The notes beneath the pieces are model-generated. The model made no database searches and had not been told where the DNA came from. It saw nothing but the letters and a program-made list of their open reading frames with translations. 39,525 nucleotides of DNA from a virus, in IMG/VR virus record IMGVR_UViG_3300027800_000027, positions 1 through 39,525 of that record; one strand, 5' to 3'. Each line of letters starts with the position of its first letter. The first letter of the stretch is position 1. The position numbers and the translations under genes were made by a program. Shown piece after piece: positions 5,424-39,525 of this stretch.

Positions 5424-5708
5424 TCATTTCGGCTCCTGTACTCGCGTTCCGACCAACACGGTCTTTGCAAATGCACGCCTATCGTTGTCGTCGCTTTCGC
5501 CAGCAATAAGCAATTCCGTAACAAGATAATCTAGCTTATCTTCCGCTTTCTTTCTCGCCTCGACCTCTTCCGCGTACATGGCGAGGAGACGGGCGCTTAG
5601 CTTACGCGTTCGTGCGCTGCTCTTTCCCTTATCTTGATCGAAGGCGCACCATGCGGAAAATTGATTAACCAACTTCTCAAACTCGTCCAGCTTCTCAAAC
5701 TCGTTCAT
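5424..5708 (-). CDS. Coiled-coil hypothetical protein, 94 aa
   Basis: The start at 5708 follows GGCGGAG by two bases; an upstream in-frame ATG would overlap the previous gene by a longer stretch. The N-terminus contains a tandem duplication, EFEKLDEFEKL, encoded by two nearly identical units of about 18 bases (5672-5708). Residues 30-70 are charged and helical (ARTRKLSARLLAMYAEEVEA). No enzyme motif is visible. Confidence 0.65.
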   Translation of the reverse strand: MNEFEKLDEFEKLVNQFSAWCAFDQDKGKSSARTRKLSARLLAMYAEEVEARKKAEDKLDYLVTELLIAGESDDNDRRAFAKTVLVGTRVQEPK

Positions 5709-6031
5709 TCTCCGCCGCCTTTCAGCGCGTTGCCGATGATGCAATCAGGAGCGTGGTGGTCAGTTTCCAAATTACCGCACGACAAGCATCCGCGAATTAT
5801 TTTGTACTGTTTGTCTTGCGGATCATCATTGATCCAGTACATAGTGGAGTGTCCTGACCACTCTAGTTCCTTCAGCGCCTCGCGAAGTTTTGCGTTTTCG
5901 GCGCGGAGTTGGTCTTCGACGGTAATAATCTGGCACATAATACCGCCGCATCGTTGGCATTCGTATGATTGCGGATCGTGTTCTGTTCGTCCGCATACAT
6001 CGCACTGATAATCGCCTTTCAATTCACTCAT
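5705..6031 (-). CDS. Zinc-ribbon and coiled-coil protein with the LEW-CxxC-HxPDC module, 108 aa
   Basis: An N-terminal ribbon has two CxxC pairs (CDVCG at 10-14, CQRCG at 25-29). A short coiled coil follows (AENAKLREALKELEW), and then a C-terminal module with CLSCG and HHAPDCIIGNAL. The same C-terminal module occurs in the genes at 6182 and 16615. Members of this small phage family are probably zinc-binding adaptors of unknown function. Translation starts from AGGAGG directly after the leader element at 6047-6150. Confidence 0.75.
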   Translation of the reverse strand: MSELKGDYQCDVCGRTEHDPQSYECQRCGGIMCQIITVEDQLRAENAKLREALKELEWSGHSTMYWINDDPQDKQYKIIRGCLSCGNLETDHHAPDCIIGNALKGGGE

Positions 6032-6046
6032 CGCATCCTCCTAATC

Positions 6047-6150
6047 AAAAAGCCGCCTCCAACCTATATACCGATTCTTGCTTAGGGATTCGGGCGTGTG
6101 GTTGGAAACGGCTCTTTGACTGGTATAAAAACACCCTGAAATCCCTAAGC
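6047..6150 (-). promoter_or_regulatory. Structured leader with interleaved inverted repeats (A-B-A'-B') ending in a U-tract
   Basis: Read on the minus strand, GCTTAGGGATT (6150-6140, A) pairs perfectly with AATCCCTAAGC (6090-6080, A'). AGCCGTTTCCAACC (6113-6100, B) pairs over 14 bases, with two G-U pairs, with GGTTGGAGGCGGCT (6064-6051, B'). B lies inside the A-A' loop and B' lies outside, so the helices interleave. They could form a pseudoknot or compete with each other. B' runs straight into TTTT (6050-6047), so B-B' looks like a terminator. AGGAGG and the ATG at 6031 follow at once. A begins six bases after the -10 box. Confidence 0.7.
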
Positions 6151-6156
6151 AGTTAT

Positions 6157-6185
6157 ATTATAGCTCGCTGTAATACCTTTGTCAA
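6157..6185 (-). promoter_or_regulatory. Consensus sigma70 promoter inside the leftward operon
   Basis: On the minus strand TTGACA (6185-6180), a 17-base spacer and TATAAT (6162-6157) match both hexamers exactly. The start is expected at about 6150, the first base of the structured leader. The -35 box overlaps the last codons of the gene at 6182. It would supply the genes from 6031 down to 4926. Confidence 0.85.
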
Positions 6186-6577
6186 CTACCAATATTTAGC
6201 GCCTTATCCAGGGCGCAATCCGGCGCGTGCTTTCCTCCAGACTGCGGCATTTCGCAGATGTAGCAGCCCGGCACAAGCTCGTGCTTTTCATTGCGGACTG
6301 TATCGCACCACTCGAGCGTTTTTAGGACGGCGCGGAGTTGGTCAATTGGGGCTTGCGGCACGTTGTCGAAATCAAGCCATGATTTGTGATATGTCCACCC
6401 GCCAGACCAAGCGTCTTTGCCAATTTCTATGTAGAAATCATTGCCACATGGTAAGGCAACATTATCAACATCTATAACCGTTCCTGCAAGTTTGCTCATT
6501 TCGTCATTGAATACGAACGGAACATCCCAACCGGTTACGACCGTACCTACTGGCATATCGCGCACTTTTGCTCTCAC
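6182..6577 (-). CDS. Hypothetical protein with a C-terminal zinc-binding LEW module, 131 aa
   Basis: Translation begins at GTG 6577 with AAGGTGAG upstream. The N-terminal half (residues 1-75) looks like a small beta-barrel (GTVVTGWDVPFVF, AGTVIDVDNV) of the kind used for binding. The C-terminus, VLKTLEW followed by CYIC and KHAPDCALDKAL, repeats the module in the proteins at 5705 and 16615, with Cys-x2-Cys and His-x3-Cys as likely zinc ligands. The role is unknown. It overlaps an exact-consensus promoter at its 3' end. Confidence 0.72.
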   Translation of the reverse strand: MRAKVRDMPVGTVVTGWDVPFVFNDEMSKLAGTVIDVDNVALPCGNDFYIEIGKDAWSGGWTYHKSWLDFDNVPQAPIDQLRAVLKTLEWCDTVRNEKHELVPGCYICEMPQSGGKHAPDCALDKALNIGS

Positions 6578-8486: not shown

Positions 8487-9671
8487 TTACAGATCCATTT
8501 CTTGCTGACCGGCGTCCTTCAACGATTCCGGCCAGATGCTTAGCAATTCTTTCTTTGCCATTTCGTCAATGACATATTCGCCGCTGCCGTTGTCTGCCTT
8601 GACCGGCTTCAACCAATCCAGCAGAGCCTTGACGACAGTTCCGTCTAAATCTTTCAGGCTGTCTTTTCCGAACATATACTTGATGCACGAGTGACGGATC
8701 TTATCAGCGTCCGCATTACCAGCGAACGGAAGTTCCAACATGGACGCAAGCAATCCGATTTGTTGCGGACTTACTTCTACAACGCCATTATACGTTGCGG
8801 CTTTCTTATAAAGCAACTCGCGTAGATGTTCTGGCGTAAATGGGCGCGTCGGTTTCTCTTGGACCTGGTCCACAACTTCCGCCGGTATCGCATCCGCGCT
8901 GGCTTTTACCGCATCGATAAGCGGCGTGGGGGTGGTGGGCGGTGTGTGTACCGTTGGCTTGCTTTCTGGCCGGGGGGTGGTGGGCACGTGGTAATCTTCA
9001 TCCGCAAAATCTTCCATATCCTGCGTGAAGTATTCGCTCGTTCCGGTAGCGATCAGGGTGGCTGCAACAAGTGCGCGTTTCTGCGCCATTTTAAGGATAG
9101 TATTGACGGATTCTGCTACATCTGGATTTGCAATCTGCCCGACGTCCTGCGATTCGATCAGCTTGTCGCCGTTCGCAAATTTTGCACCACAGCCACCTTT
9201 ATTCTTGAAACACAACCAGCCTCCGCCGTATTCTTCCTTGCCCTTGATGATCGCTTCTGCGCCACACTTCGGGCATTTACGGCCAGACTTGCGATAACGG
9301 TATTTCTTCTCCCACGAGTTGCAGGAACCGTCAGCCGATGCGATGCGCTGATCACCGTGGAACAGAACACACTTGATGCGGTAGTAGAAGAACGGCTCTC
9401 CGTTGTGGTTCGAACCCGTCCAATCTTCCACGGTCTGTACGTCAAGGAACTCTGGCGAAAGACCGAAGAAACTGGTCATTTTCTCGGCGCCCGGCTTTAG
9501 CAGCGTTTTCTTGTCTGTGCCGGGGATGGCTCCAAAGTCAACGCCCTCGCGCAGAATACTTTTGACGAACTCGTGTTTTACGCCGTAGGCTTTCTGAATG
9601 TCAGCCAAAGCCATAACCGGCATAAGTGAGTTCTGCTGCTGGTACACTACAATTCCATTATCGTCTGTCAT
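8487..9671 (-). CDS. Phage ssDNA/recombination-associated protein candidate, 394 aa
   Basis: The N-terminal 220 residues follow a common phage family with the signatures SFFGLSPEFLDVQTVEDWTG, SCNSWEKKYRYR and MAQKRALVAATLIATG followed by SEYFTQDMED. I know the family from early regions near SSB-like and nuclease genes but not its biochemistry; a role in DNA annealing or recombination is inference. A zinc ribbon is inserted at 133-161 (CPKC, then Cys154 and Cys161). Residues 229-255 are a proline/threonine linker, and a helical C-terminal domain ends in an acidic QQEMDL. It is the largest gene on the minus strand. Confidence 0.65.
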   Translation of the reverse strand: MTDDNGIVVYQQQNSLMPVMALADIQKAYGVKHEFVKSILREGVDFGAIPGTDKKTLLKPGAEKMTSFFGLSPEFLDVQTVEDWTGSNHNGEPFFYYRIKCVLFHGDQRIASADGSCNSWEKKYRYRKSGRKCPKCGAEAIIKGKEEYGGGWLCFKNKGGCGAKFANGDKLIESQDVGQIANPDVAESVNTILKMAQKRALVAATLIATGTSEYFTQDMEDFADEDYHVPTTPRPESKPTVHTPPTTPTPLIDAVKASADAIPAEVVDQVQEKPTRPFTPEHLRELLYKKAATYNGVVEVSPQQIGLLASMLELPFAGNADADKIRHSCIKYMFGKDSLKDLDGTVVKALLDWLKPVKADNGSGEYVIDEMAKKELLSIWPESLKDAGQQEMDL

Positions 9672-11011: not shown

Positions 11012-11136
11012 CAGACAAATCCGCTGATCCCAGCATAGAACGATTTCCGGTCTATTTTGACGGAGCAGGCGACAAGGGAAACAAGTGGGATCAATTCGAT
11101 TATGTAGTTTGGATTTCCAGGAAGGTGACGGCATGA
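11008..11136 (+). CDS. Short hypothetical protein, 42 aa
   Basis: The ATG overlaps the upstream stop, and GAAGG lies seven bases ahead. The sequence contains RFPVYFDGAGDKGNKWDQFD and ends ISRKVTA, the same four final residues (KVTA) as the upstream protein because both ends lie in a 16-base direct repeat. It is too short for a family call. Coding is supported by tight ATGA junctions on both sides. Confidence 0.55.
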   Translation: MTDKSADPSIERFPVYFDGAGDKGNKWDQFDYVVWISRKVTA

Positions 11137-11645
11137 TCAACGCCAAAATTGATTATAAGAAGAACGAGAAGTTTGACAACTTATACACACCAGAACGGGC
11201 GGTAAAGCCATTATTGAACTATGTACACACCGGTTTGAAAATTTGGGAATGCTGCGATCACACCGGCGATAGCAACATATCAAAAGTGTTACGAGATTAC
11301 GGGTGCGAGGTTATTACAAGTGACATTAGATCTGGCTTTGACTTCCTGACGGATACTCAAACGCAGGACTTTGACATTATCGTCACCAACCCGCCATATT
11401 CGCTCAAGGATAAATTTCTACAGCGATGCTATGAATACGGAAAACCGTTCGCGCTACTTTTGCCGCTGACCGCGCTTGAGGGTATTCAGCGGTCAAAGAT
11501 GTTTCAGAAGTATGGAATATCAGTTATCGTCTTGGATCGCCGTATAGACTTCACCGGTAAGAAAGCGTGCTGGTTCAATGTTTCATGGTTTACTCATGGA
11601 ATAGTTGGAGATTATCAACTTTATTTTGAAGAGGTATTCGCATGA
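11133..11645 (+). CDS. Adenine-type DNA methyltransferase-like protein, 170 aa
   Basis: The motif IIVTNPPYS (residues 82-90) is the catalytic motif IV of N6-adenine methyltransferases. A motif-I-like stretch, WECCDHTGDSNISKVL (38-53), precedes it with TSDIRSG as motif II. It lacks the GxG of a textbook motif I, so it is a divergent short member without a separate target-recognition domain. It probably modifies phage DNA. The ATG at 11133 is used because it overlaps the previous stop. It overlaps the next methyltransferase gene by four bases. Confidence 0.75.
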   Translation: MINAKIDYKKNEKFDNLYTPERAVKPLLNYVHTGLKIWECCDHTGDSNISKVLRDYGCEVITSDIRSGFDFLTDTQTQDFDIIVTNPPYSLKDKFLQRCYEYGKPFALLLPLTALEGIQRSKMFQKYGISVIVLDRRIDFTGKKACWFNVSWFTHGIVGDYQLYFEEVFA

Positions 11646-12358: not shown

Positions 12359-12367
12359 TGCTATACT
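12359..12367 (+). promoter_or_regulatory. Extended -10 promoter ahead of the second interleaved leader
   Basis: TGC precedes TATACT (12362-12367), matching the extended -10 form that does not need a good -35 box, and none is visible. The start is expected near 12374, the first base of the structured leader. The same six-base distance from -10 box to leader occurs at 6157-6150. Confidence 0.6.
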
Positions 12368-12373
12368 GTAAAC

Positions 12374-12475
12374 GTCACAGGAAGTAGTTTTTTTATCAGC
12401 CAATAACCTAATGAATTACTCCCGCGCGAACTGCTTTCCTGTGACAAGAAAAGTTGCTGACGCCGGGAGTTTTCT
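12374..12475 (+). promoter_or_regulatory. Second leader with interleaved inverted repeats (A-B-A'-B') and a U-tract
   Basis: GTCACAGGAA (12374-12383, A) pairs perfectly with TTCCTGTGAC (12436-12445, A'), extendable to 14 bp with one bulge. ACTCCCG (12418-12424, B), inside the A-A' loop, pairs with CGGGAGT (12464-12470, B'), which is followed by TTTCTT. The order, the start at +1 and the final U-tract before the ribosome site match the leader at 6047-6150, although the sequences differ. A T7 run (12388-12394) follows A. It precedes the methyltransferase gene at 12491. Confidence 0.65.
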
Positions 12476-12490
12476 TATCTAAGGATCATT

Positions 12491-13426
12491 ATGACAGCAA
12501 AGCTAATGCAAGGTGACTGCTTACAAGTTTTGAGGACGCTTGATGATAAATCAGTAAACTGTATCGTCACATCACCGCCATACTACGGACTACGCGATTA
12601 TGGTGTAGCTGGCCAGATCGGACTAGAACCTACACCCGATGAGTACACCGCGAAGCTCGTAGAGGTATTTCACGAGGCAAGGCGGGTACTGCGCTACACC
12701 GGTACACTCTGGTTAAATTTGGGCGATAGTTATGCTGGTTCGTCTGGGTCAAAAAATGGCAATCTAAAGCCCAAAGACCTTATTGGCATTCCCTGGCGCG
12801 TGGCATTCGCATTACAGGCGGATGGTTTTTATCTGCGCTCTGACATTATTTGGGCGAAACCTAATCCAATGCCGGAAAGCGTAACCGACCGCCCTACAAA
12901 AAGCCATGAGTATATTTTCTTGCTGTCAAAATCGGAGCGGTATTACTACGACAACGAAGCGATAAAAGAGCCGTGCGTTTGGTCCTCAGTTGAACGTCTC
13001 GGACAGAATATCGAAAAACAAAATGGATCGTCGCGTGTTCCAGGTAAATCCAACGGGAATATGAAAGCCGTTTGTTCTGGCAAAGATTGGAATCCGTCAA
13101 TGGCGGGCGGTGCGGTTGGAATAGAAAACCGAAAACATCTACCGTATCCGATGGCAAATAAGCGCGACGTATGGACTGTAACCACAAAGCCGTATAAAGA
13201 AGCACACTTTGCAACATTTCCGCCAGATCTGATTGAGCCGTGTATTCTGGCAGGTTGTCCGGTTGGCGGAACCGTGCTCGACCCATTCAATGGGTCCGGA
13301 ACGACGGGGGCAGTATCCATCAAACATCACCGGAATTACATTGGGATTGAACTTAACGAAAAGTACATAAAGTTATCAGAACGAAGATTCGGCAAAGTAC
13401 AGCCAACGCTAGTCGAGGTGGAATAA
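12491..13426 (+). CDS. Site-specific N4/N6 DNA methyltransferase, 311 aa
   Basis: This is a beta-class amino-methyltransferase: motif IV TSPPYYGLRDYG (residues 27-38) is near the N-terminus, and motif I, LDPFNGSGTT (263-272), is near the C-terminus, followed by IGIEL. SPPY is more typical of N4-cytosine than N6-adenine enzymes. Length and motifs agree with a complete active enzyme. The middle (about 130-240) is the likely recognition region. It probably protects phage DNA from restriction. It follows the interleaved leader, so it may be expressed separately from the genes upstream. Confidence 0.88.
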   Translation: MTAKLMQGDCLQVLRTLDDKSVNCIVTSPPYYGLRDYGVAGQIGLEPTPDEYTAKLVEVFHEARRVLRYTGTLWLNLGDSYAGSSGSKNGNLKPKDLIGIPWRVAFALQADGFYLRSDIIWAKPNPMPESVTDRPTKSHEYIFLLSKSERYYYDNEAIKEPCVWSSVERLGQNIEKQNGSSRVPGKSNGNMKAVCSGKDWNPSMAGGAVGIENRKHLPYPMANKRDVWTVTTKPYKEAHFATFPPDLIEPCILAGCPVGGTVLDPFNGSGTTGAVSIKHHRNYIGIELNEKYIKLSERRFGKVQPTLVEVE

Positions 13427-19578: not shown

Positions 19579-19606
19579 TTGACAAGTAGCGAACAGTCGC
19601 TATAAT
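19579..19606 (+). promoter_or_regulatory. Consensus sigma70 promoter of the tRNA cluster
   Basis: TTGACA (19579-19584), a 16-base spacer and TATAAT (19601-19606) match both hexamers exactly. The start is expected near 19613. No protein gene follows until 20553, and a terminator closes the transcript at about 20379. Confidence 0.85.
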
Positions 19607-19612
19607 GAAATT

Positions 19613-19710
19613 ATGTATGCTAGTTTCATCACCAGCGCCCTGGCTCGGTAAACAGGTAAAAATTGCGACAGGGTAATGTCTTCGGGAACACGAGGCTAAC
19701 CGAAGAACAA
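19613..19710 (+). other. Leader of the tRNA transcript
   Basis: This 98-base stretch has no gene. It contains CCCTG (19638-19642) with CAGGG (19669-19673) and CTTCGG with CCGAAG (19680-19705), and may aid processing of the first tRNA. I see no full cloverleaf in it. Confidence 0.4.
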
Positions 19711-19783
19711 GCCTCATTAGCTCAACGGACAGAGCGAATCGGTTCTAACGATAGTGTTGGTGGTTCGAATCCACTATGAGGCT
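19711..19783 (+). tRNA. tRNA-Arg (anticodon TCT)
   Basis: The acceptor GCCTCAT pairs perfectly with ATGAGGC. The D-stem is GCTC/GAGC with GG in the loop, the anticodon loop is GTTCTAA, and the T-loop is TTCGAAT with stem GGTGG/CCACT. The anticodon stem has an A-A mismatch at its outer pair. CCA is not encoded directly after the discriminator. It reads AGA, a rare codon in many hosts. Confidence 0.85.
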
Positions 19784-19786
19784 CAT

Positions 19787-19859
19787 GCCACATTAGCTCA
19801 TCTGGTAGAGCGGAGATTTTGTAAATCTATGGTGGATTGTTCGAGACAATCATGTGGCT
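19787..19859 (+). tRNA. tRNA-Thr (anticodon TGT)
   Basis: The acceptor GCCACAT/ATGTGGC is perfect, the D-stem is GCTC/GAGC with GG in the loop, the anticodon loop is TTTGTAA and the T-stem GATTG/CAATC encloses TTCGAGA. The outer anticodon-stem pair is a G-A mismatch, as in the preceding tRNA. CCA is not encoded. It shares its first 16 bases almost exactly with the tRNA-Arg, suggesting duplication. Confidence 0.85.
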
Positions 19860-19861
19860 CA

Positions 19862-19928
19862 CGCCGTGGTGCAAGTAGCACAGCCTATACGGTAGGCGGA
19901 TGAGCGTTTGAATCGCTCAGGCTAATGA
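19862..19928 (+). tRNA. Degenerate tRNA-like element (possible Arg, anticodon ACG)
   Basis: A D-arm (GTGC/GCAC with a 5-base loop), an anticodon arm (GCCT/AGGC around ATACGGT) and a T-arm (GAGCG/CGCTC around TTTGAAT) appear in order, but no acceptor stem pairs. The D-loop lacks GG and the variable loop has only three bases. It may be a pseudo-tRNA or a structured spacer. Confidence 0.35.
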
Positions 19929-19949
19929 ACATATCGAAAATTGAACAGT

Positions 19950-20067
19950 TGATCGGCGGCGTGGACGGGGACACGCGGATAGGCCCTCAAAATTACGCTT
20001 GCTTTGGTCTACTGCGATCCAGAGGGACAGCAAACCAATAAACCGGGTTCAAACCCCGGCCGATCAA
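19950..20067 (+). tRNA. Over-long tRNA-like element, about 118 nt
   Basis: The outer parts are excellent: acceptor TGATCGG (19950-19956) pairs with CCGATCA (20060-20066), the T-arm CCGGG/CCCGG encloses TTCAAAC, and a D-arm GCGTG/CACGC encloses GACGGGGA. Between the D-arm and T-arm are 66 bases, where a class I tRNA has about 23 and a class II tRNA about 40. That part contains the hairpin CTTTGG/CCAGAG (20001-20023) and a possible CTCAAAA anticodon loop that does not close with a stem. An intron, an oversized variable arm or a non-translating tRNA mimic are possible. Confidence 0.5.
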
Positions 20068-20104
20068 ATAGAATATAATGCCGAAGCTATGAAGCGCGTA
20101 GTCG

Positions 20105-20178
20105 CGTGGAGCACGGCTTATAGATTAGGCTGGTTACGTGGAGCGCGTTGGTATGCCGTTCAATCCGGTTCGCCATGG
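20105..20178 (+). tRNA. Weak tRNA-like element
   Basis: A canonical T-loop TTCAATC (20159-20165) is flanked by GCCG and CGGT, and CGTGGAG (20105-20111) can pair imperfectly with CGCCATG (20071 + 100 to 20177). A D-arm CGGC/GCTG is possible. The anticodon arm is poor and lacks U33. It is probably a decayed tRNA. Confidence 0.25.
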
Positions 20179-20204
20179 TAGCAGTGACCTGAGCCAGCCT
20201 TCCA

Positions 20205-20276
20205 TGCGGGTGGAAGGTAAGATATCTTACCAGACCCATAATCTGGAATAACACAGTCTGATTCTGTGACCCGCAA
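20205..20276 (+). tRNA. tRNA-Met-like (anticodon CAT) with abnormal D- and T-loops
   Basis: Acceptor TGCGGGT/ACCCGCA, anticodon arm CCAGA/TCTGG around CCCATAA, a 5-base variable loop and T-stem CACAG/CTGTG are all perfect, and the total length is 72. However, the D-loop lacks the GG pair, the T-loop is TCTGATT in place of TTC-initial, and position 33 is C. GGTAAG/CTTACC in the D region forms an alternative 6-7 bp hairpin. It may be a non-standard functional tRNA or a mimic. Confidence 0.6.
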
Positions 20277-20279
20277 CAT

Positions 20280-20329
20280 TACTGGCGAAGCCTCTACTCG
20301 ACTCTGAGAACGGCTCAACTGTCGCCAGT
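20280..20329 (+). other. Hairpin element between the last tRNA and the terminator
   Basis: ACTGGCGA (20280-20287) and TCGCCAGT (20322-20329) form a perfect 8-bp stem, with AGCC (20288-20291) and GGCT (20313-20316) able to continue it. Its meaning is unclear; it could be a processing signal or an acceptor-stem-like remnant. Confidence 0.5.
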
Positions 20330-20335
20330 CGTACA

Positions 20336-20379
20336 GTAAAACAGCTTTCCAGTTGATCGCGGAAGGCTGTTTTATTTTT
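20336..20379 (+). terminator. Rho-independent terminator of the tRNA transcript
   Basis: AAAACAGCTTTCC (20338-20350) pairs with GGAAGGCTGTTTT with one G-U pair around a 10-base loop, and ATTTTTG follows. It closes the transcript that begins near 19613. Confidence 0.85.
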
Positions 20380-20473
20380 GCAATATGATGCAACAACTTA
20401 TCAACTTTGTTTACTTCTCGCAACGCAATGTAAACTAAGTAGCCACTTTTGTATACTTTCGTGGATTTGCTAC

Positions 20474-38846: not shown

Positions 38847-39525
38847 ATGACAGCATCATTTCCAAGTACAGTAAAATCATTTACAGATAAAGTCGATGCA
38901 GTTGATGACGTAATGGCGGCTGATGTCAATTCGGCATATGCTGAAATAACGGCAGTTGAGACTGAATTATTGTCGCTTACTACCATCGGCGCGACCTCGG
39001 CCGCGGTCACAGCGGGAACAGCAACGAATAAGGCTATCACGCCAAAGTCGTTGGCAGATGCTGGGATAACTGCAATATCTGCTGCAAGCACTACTTCTCA
39101 GGGCATCATAGAAATAGCTACTAACGCGGAAGCAATTGCGATGGCTGATACCGAACGAGCCGTTACCCCAGAAAATCTCAAATATGCTTACAAAGTTCCA
39201 ATTATGGGTAACTCAGGTGGCGCAACCATCGCTGGTGGACAGACGAGATATTGTGGGGTGGGCGCAATAAACGCCACAGAATCGTATGTTTATGTCCCTG
39301 TTCCATTCGCGTGCGTAATCCGCAATCTATATGTTTATTCGGACGGTTCTCCTGGCGCAGGGCAAACATACACGGCCACGCTCAGGAAAACGATAGCAAA
39401 CACCGCTATTACCTGCCAAATCGTAGCAGGGTCAAATGCCGCGAACGATACAACACATAGCGTTTCGTTCAACGCCGGGGATAGATGGGCTATTATGATT
39501 GTTTCAAGCGCTACCGCCGTCACAA
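38847..39525 (+). CDS. Tail-fibre-like protein (5' part, continues at base 1)
   Basis: AGAGGAG precedes the ATG. The opening TASFPSTVKSFTDKVDAVDD and the following VMAADVNSAYAEITAVETEL are common in phage fibre-associated proteins. A repeat-like Thr/Ala region (ITPKSLADAG, AVTPENLKYA) follows, of the kind seen in collar or fibre repeats. The coding frame runs off the window and ends at base 235 of the circular unit, 238 residues in all. Confidence 0.78.
   Translation, partial: MTASFPSTVKSFTDKVDAVDDVMAADVNSAYAEITAVETELLSLTTIGATSAAVTAGTATNKAITPKSLADAGITAISAASTTSQGIIEIATNAEAIAMADTERAVTPENLKYAYKVPIMGNSGGATIAGGQTRYCGVGAINATESYVYVPVPFACVIRNLYVYSDGSPGAGQTYTATLRKTIANTAITCQIVAGSNAANDTTHSVSFNAGDRWAIMIVSSATAVT
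39329..39525. repeat. Terminal overlap of a circular assembly (copy 2)
   Basis: This is the same as bases 1-197 apart from A at 39399 (T at 71). The unit genome is bases 1-39328. Confidence 0.85.

Follow-up and report, generated by a model that had tools for sequence, protein, structure and literature searches.

What kind of RNA begins at the consensus promoter near position 6150 of the uncultured phage record IMGVR_UViG_3300027800_000027? An earlier note on this DNA had described a leader in which an 11-bp perfect inverted repeat (A-A') starts at the expected +1 and interleaves with a 14-bp helix (B-B') containing G-U pairs. The two helices were read there as either a pseudoknot or alternatives, with the logic of an attenuator or antiterminator, and the sequence was assigned to no riboswitch class. 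In the window (the entire 39,525-nt stretch of this record), the leader occupies positions 6043-6151 on the minus strand, and the interlocked structure as observed is real and more extensive than first described.

The promoter directly above the leader is as the earlier note had it: a sigma-70 sequence matching the consensus at 12 of 12 positions (6157-6185, minus strand), with TTGACA at 6185-6180, a 17-nt spacer and TATAAT at 6162-6157. The stop codon of the upstream gene (6182-6577, minus strand) falls inside its -35 box. The 5' arm of helix A (6139-6151), which covaries in homologues, begins at the predicted +1 (G 6150) and pairs with a 3' arm, A', at 6079-6091. Its 11-bp core (6150-6140 with 6090-6080) is perfect, the full helix comprises 13 bp, and a further extension at 6136-6131/6097-6092 is possible. 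Helix B, formed by 6100-6121 and 6043-6064 (B'), also grows on inspection, from 14 to 22 bp including G-U pairs, and appears in the minimum free energy structure. B' had been said to flow into four U residues and then AGGAGG-ATG. A U-run and a Shine-Dalgarno sequence (AGGAGG, 6037-6042, read from the sequence) are indeed present, but the run consists of five U residues (6051-6047) and lies within B', and although an ATG at 6036 abuts AGGAGG, the open frame begins at the ATG at 6031. According to the ORF list, that frame (5705-6031, minus strand) encodes a 108-aa Cys-rich protein, which has no match in Pfam or PHROG and for which no relatives were found.

A third helix, C, pairs TATACC (6122-6127) with GGTATA (6067-6072); it is supported by swap controls across leaders and by compensated change relative to the leader L149, both described below. 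Together with the minus-strand location, the extension of A and a second leader at 12363-12490, it goes beyond the earlier description. The order along the transcript is A-C-B-A'-C'-B', so that A crosses B and C crosses both. Helices A and B together contribute 35 bp, compared with a maximum of 28 bp for the best interleaved pair in 30 shuffled windows, and the fold z-score of the leader is -4.4 to -4.7 under nested-only folding. At gathering score, Rfam 15 matches only tRNAs in the window and none of the leaders across 20 loci, in agreement with the initial impression that this is no known riboswitch class.

The second leader (12363-12490, plus strand) has the same architecture and is weaker, with a weak -35 box and a score of 54.5, which is under the strict cut used in the scans below. 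It comprises a -10 box (TATACT, 12363-12368), helix A (12374-12384/12435-12445), helix C (TCAGC at 12396-12400 with GCTGA at 12456-12460) and helix B (ACTCCCG at 12418-12424 with CGGGAGT at 12464-12470), followed by a U-run and a Shine-Dalgarno sequence. The gene behind it (12491-13426, plus strand) encodes a DNA methylase (PF01555, E 8.8e-51).

Several other features of the window were recorded. An exact 126-bp direct repeat at 72-197 and 39400-39525 suggests that the genome, of about 39.3 kb, is either circular or terminally redundant. Another promoter matching at 12 of 12 positions (TTGACA-16-TATAAT), in the region 19579-20380 (plus strand), precedes tRNA-Arg(tct) and tRNA-Thr(tgt). Downstream of these lies a stretch of about 500 nt in which no gene is clear; it holds tRNA-like pieces at 19863-19930 and 19950-20070 (with a CCGGGTTCAAACCCCGG arm) and ends near a terminator-like hairpin at about 20344-20378. 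A strong promoter (TTGTCA-16-TATAAT, 11179-11152, minus strand) lies inside a plus-strand open reading frame (11085-11645) and points into about 1 kb that has no clear minus-strand genes before 10169.

Because the 108-aa protein lacks detectable relatives, further leaders were sought by pattern and via the protein encoded at 8487-9671, through which 34 related viral loci were reached. A scan of related loci for a promoter followed immediately by crossed helices returned 22 matches, compared with two in each of three shuffles, and many of the 22 combine near-perfect promoters with unrelated helix sequences. A dedicated leader finder was then applied to 2.36 Mb with a cut at a score of at least 60; it gave 65 matches, against none in shuffled sequence. 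After de-duplication about 43 distinct leaders remain, all from uncultured phages, forming 26 clusters with a median pairwise identity of 0.47. When C was added to a relaxed scan, the output was too noisy under a score of 70 for members to be counted. At standard finder settings no site scoring at least 48 was found in the cultured phages HK022, RB49 (50 kb), Mx4 (27 kb), PMBT5, E2 and Cr-LKS3; an AT-rich site near the HK022 att region, scoring 57 at looser settings, looks like chance.

Collection-wide scans used patterns that fixed only the -10 box, A and A'. Two types of A sequence, TGTCTAGG and TGCTTAGG, gave 26 and 15 phage matches, while a hybrid control pattern, in which A and A' were taken from different types and are not fully complementary, gave no phage matches. 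The TGTCTAGG pattern had no match in 699 bacterial genomes (Chloroflexota and Bacillota), and one pattern match lies in a Chitinophagales MAG contig that itself looks like phage. A third type, GTCACAGG, yielded three matches, namely the L002 leader once more and two that look like chance; this result sets the empirical false-positive level at about two per pattern scan. Two further matches from these scans (L158 and L161) were likewise judged to be chance. The exact full-length A pattern of the window leader found no match in phages, and the DNA of the leader gave only short, weak matches to annotated phages and plasmids. The existence of the leader class is nearly certain, and the best explanation for the leader in the window is that it belongs to an undescribed family of phage leader RNAs that moves as a unit with a strong, host-type promoter. 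The literature searched yielded no account of a leader built from three crossed helices; subscription papers were thinly covered there, and an earlier report is possible.

With so little sequence in common, the helices are best judged as pairings. The covariation of A-A' and B-B' on which the earlier note had staked its reading is present in homologous leaders. In the three leaders that can be aligned (L148, L033 and L104), 43 pairs were followed and 95.3% of 128 cells pair; 14 pairs show two-sided changes (seven in A, two in C and five in B), a number equalled in none of 500 shuffles, with slid controls giving zero to two. The nearest relative of the window leader, L149, is 70% identical to it over the leader only. 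Helix C reads GUUCUCC/GGAGAAC there and UAUACC/GGUAUA in the window, and both strands of B also differ in its upper part. Swap controls compared each leader's own partner strands with strands from other leaders, in matches found without reference to B or C. The own strands are favoured for B (-32.4 vs -18.4 kcal/mol, z -15), for C (-9.2 vs -6.3, z -7) and for the extension of A (-10.4 vs -6.8, z -8). In the pattern-found set the first eight pairs of A were fixed by the search, and the finder that picked the 43 leaders itself used B and U content. Helix C is short, and it is not apparent in some leaders, L006 and L097 among them. The interlocked knot must matter, because it has been kept through near-complete sequence change.

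The arrangement around the helices is consistent across the 43 leaders. The median match to the sigma-70 consensus is 10 of 12, helix A starts 3-8 nt past the -10 box, leader length ranges from 74 to 161 nt (median 103), and in the middle half of leaders B' lies 13-22 nt from the start codon. The Shine-Dalgarno sequence is 3' of B' and outside all three helices. A and B share no bases in any of the 43, B cannot be extended by three or more pairs into A or A', and C was parsed between A and B without overlap. By a simple chain-length rule, applied with no three-dimensional model, the length of the loop strands permits A and B to form together. Of the two possibilities originally offered, the interleaving of two real helices thus stands, whereas their being alternatives finds no support: no bases are shared, the geometry allows both, and a third helix joins them. 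A textbook either/or attenuator is not what these leaders resemble, because A, B and C have no bases in common.

What does recur is a U-rich stretch behind B'. At the six positions past the last G-C pair of B, the T fraction is 0.72, 0.60, 0.65, 0.49, 0.58 and 0.49, and at -20 to -11 before the start codon it is 0.49/0.39, compared with 0.27/0.15 for other genes in the same contigs. About half of the leaders exceed the 90th percentile of background tail scores. A minority (L128, L123, L138 and L104_2199) have no U-run next to B'. In predictions that omit pseudoknot terms, the B state is favoured over the A state by more than 2 kcal/mol in 23 of the 43 leaders, and the reverse holds in 10. The attenuator or antiterminator logic of the earlier note thus survives in part: B' does run into a U-rich stretch, but since that stretch is enriched and not universal, attenuation is no more than plausible. 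Smaller elements were also seen. A U-rich motif, UUUUUGUUU, recurs between C and B in leaders such as L121, L126, L129, L133 and L149, where it might serve as a spacer, bind a protein or contribute a strand to a triple helix. In L126, L144 and L150 the stretch from B' to the start codon contains a small hairpin whose loop is U-rich (such as TTCC-TTTTT-GGAA and GCACC-TTTTAT-GGTGC).

The reading we favour, to which we assign a probability of about one in two, is that of a cassette of promoter and leader: the loop of B, a terminator-like helix, would be clamped by A and C, and this clamp would set the level of readthrough. Transcription would start at the first base of helix A, and as the RNA emerged A-A' would pair, then C-C' and then B-B'. 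Since the three helices share no bases and cross mutually, nearly the whole 5' UTR, including the 5' end, would be tied up and only the ribosome-binding site left open. B-B' has the features of a terminator, a G-C-rich base and a U-run, with a loop consisting of A' and C', both of which would be clamped by the RNA's own 5' end. Since that loop is made of A' and C', whose partners A and C are the earlier ones to be transcribed, the natural inference is that closure of the terminator is held back: A and C would form first and delay or weaken the closure of B-B', and the intact cassette would read through at a set level into its single gene. With no overlap between the helices, B-B' might just as well be able to form despite the clamp. 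Compared with the attenuator logic first proposed, the leader would then have two clamping helices, neither sharing bases with the terminator.

The strongest competitor to this clamp takes the same geometry as a shield for the 5' end. A, B and C would coexist in a compact pseudoknot that buries the 5' end at the A/C junction and fills the 5' UTR as far as the ribosome-binding site. Such a fold would block 5'-to-3' exonucleases or decay that depends on the 5' end, and any termination would be incidental. It may be right, although we consider it rather unlikely. The start of helix A at +1, the lack of shared bases in 43 of 43 leaders, chain lengths that permit A and B together, the fairly constant 13-22 nt between B' and the start codon and the retention of the helices in leaders without a U-run would all be expected of such a structure. 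The enrichment of U just behind B' and the G-C-rich base of B beside a U-rich stretch are left unexplained by it.

In 18 of 39 cases the gene directly behind the leader belongs to the HNH, GIY-YIG, LAGLIDADG, T5orf172/MUG113, phage endonuclease or TnpB families; the others encode replication proteins, DNA methylases, a sigma-70 region-4 protein and unfamiliar proteins. TnpB (IS605 OrfB) genes were seen in viral contigs directly behind the leaders L133, L123 and L144 and, by reading, L127. Some contigs that carry a leader also show matches to Rfam RNAs, namely int-alpA (RF02996, L121:3240-3305) and DUF3800-VI (RF02915, L152:3247-3296). Several related leaders are alike only from about -27 to the start codon, with unrelated flanks. 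One exchange point is flanked on either side by sequence in which the sibling phages L104 and L122/L137 share 98.7-100% identity. At this point one sibling has an HNH gene followed by a gene for replication, in place of which the other has a single replication-type gene of another kind, and the left border of the exchange is the start codon of the leader. Elsewhere, L104 combines the promoter of one L137 leader with the gene behind the following one, and the leader that connects them is a third one, self-consistent in its pairing.

Such exchanges are reminiscent of the promoter early stem-loop (PeSL) cassettes of T4-like phages, the nearest known kind. These are said to consist of a strong sigma-70 promoter, a stem-loop at or near +1 and then a gene; the modules are reportedly repeated within a genome, with genes exchanged at their borders. 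The likeness lies in the strong sigma-70 promoter immediately above the structure (matching the consensus at 12/12 positions in the window and at a median of 10/12 in the 43 leaders), in the repetition of the module and in gene exchange at it. A further explanation is that B-B' is a plain terminator insulating against upstream transcription, with the repeated module serving as a hot spot of recombination at which genes are shuffled and the interlocking being secondary. Exchange borders at leaders in sibling phages, similarity islands confined to the leader and the simple hairpins at or near +1 of some RB49 early promoters speak for this, yet a plain terminator needs neither A nor C, and compensatory change keeps both. 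In addition, the three leaders that L137 carries within 3.3 kb each have an A sequence of their own, and differing A sequences within one contig were seen in other contigs as well; because A and C differ between leaders of one genome, they would be poor homology tracts for recombination. We regard this account as improbable. The differences from PeSL cassettes are also structural: the RB49 examples inspected are single, nested hairpins, in contrast to the crossed A-C-B-A'-C'-B' helices here, in which the RNA 5' end pairs with the loop of a terminator-like helix, and the 39.5-kb phage of the window is not T4-like.

Other leader RNAs offer partial parallels. HK022 put and Bacillus EAR are cis-acting antitermination RNAs in phage or operon leaders that act on polymerase; put, which binds RNA polymerase and renders it resistant to terminators, comprises two nested stem-loops, EAR includes a pseudoknot, and neither is known to include a terminator-like helix with a U-run. 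The leaders described here resemble them as structured leader RNAs and, for EAR, in being pseudoknotted, and are set apart in having such a helix. Attenuators and terminator-linked riboswitches likewise place a terminator-like helix just before a gene with complementary segments upstream. In attenuators, however, helices share bases, whereas here they do not and no leader peptide is held in common, and the conserved aptamer sequence of a riboswitch is missing (26 clusters, median identity 0.47).

RNA hairpins control the phage homing endonucleases I-TevI, segB and mobE, and a seg43(25) hairpin lies just upstream of the ribosome-binding site (PMC2988022). The leaders are similar to these in being structured 5' regions directly upstream of endonuclease genes and, as for seg43(25), in having the ribosome-binding site just downstream of a stem. 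In I-TevI-type control the ribosome-binding site is sequestered and the structure occurs only on transcripts from upstream promoters; here, by contrast, the structure starts from the promoter's own +1, is interleaved and leaves the ribosome-binding site outside, and leaders also precede methylase and replication genes. Translational control, in which A' or the pseudoknot would govern access to the downstream ribosome-binding site, would fit the proximity of B' to the SD-ATG, a possible 5-bp pairing of CCUA in A' with UUAGG at the Shine-Dalgarno sequence of the window and the known control of phage homing endonucleases by RBS hairpins (PMC2988022). In the model, however, none of the three helices includes the Shine-Dalgarno sequence, and the pairing of 5 bp is known from the window leader only; we hold this account very unlikely.

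Least likely, to the point of being nearly negligible, is a trans-acting or antisense-controlled leader of the P4 CI or pT181 type, released as a short RNA to pair with other transcripts: A and A' are fully complementary and a terminated leader would presumably be a small RNA of about 110 nt, but differing A sequences within one genome favour pairing within one molecule, and no second copy of the 6043-6151 leader was found in the window. Four further candidates were rejected: a type III toxin-antitoxin RNA (there are no repeats), a ribozyme (the structure starts at the transcription start), a TnpB omega RNA (the leader is on the wrong side of the gene, and most genes behind leaders are not TnpB) and leader-peptide attenuation (there is no common uORF).

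Returning to the clamped terminator, the cassette would make a horizontally moving gene (HNH, GIY-YIG, LAGLIDADG, TnpB, methylase or replication) expressible wherever it lands. More tentatively, and at somewhat less than even odds, these leaders may represent a new class of cis-acting RNA whose terminator-like helix is under topological control, the 5' end threading into its loop and clamping it via two helices with no competition for bases. For phages it would be a portable, nearly sequence-independent cassette from which to express mobile genes, and each copy would have its own pairing code.

Three mutually crossing helices that start at +1 are an addition to known RNA architectures. Since little sequence is conserved, both sequence-based and nested-structure searches see such crossed leaders poorly. 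In phages, the leaders connect RNA structure with strong promoters and with the genes of mobile endonucleases, and they provide a portable design with which control of termination or decay by an RNA 5' end could be tested. If the clamp does antiterminate, it would be a switch that works without base competition; if the leader instead shields, it would be a compact bacterial 5' stabiliser.
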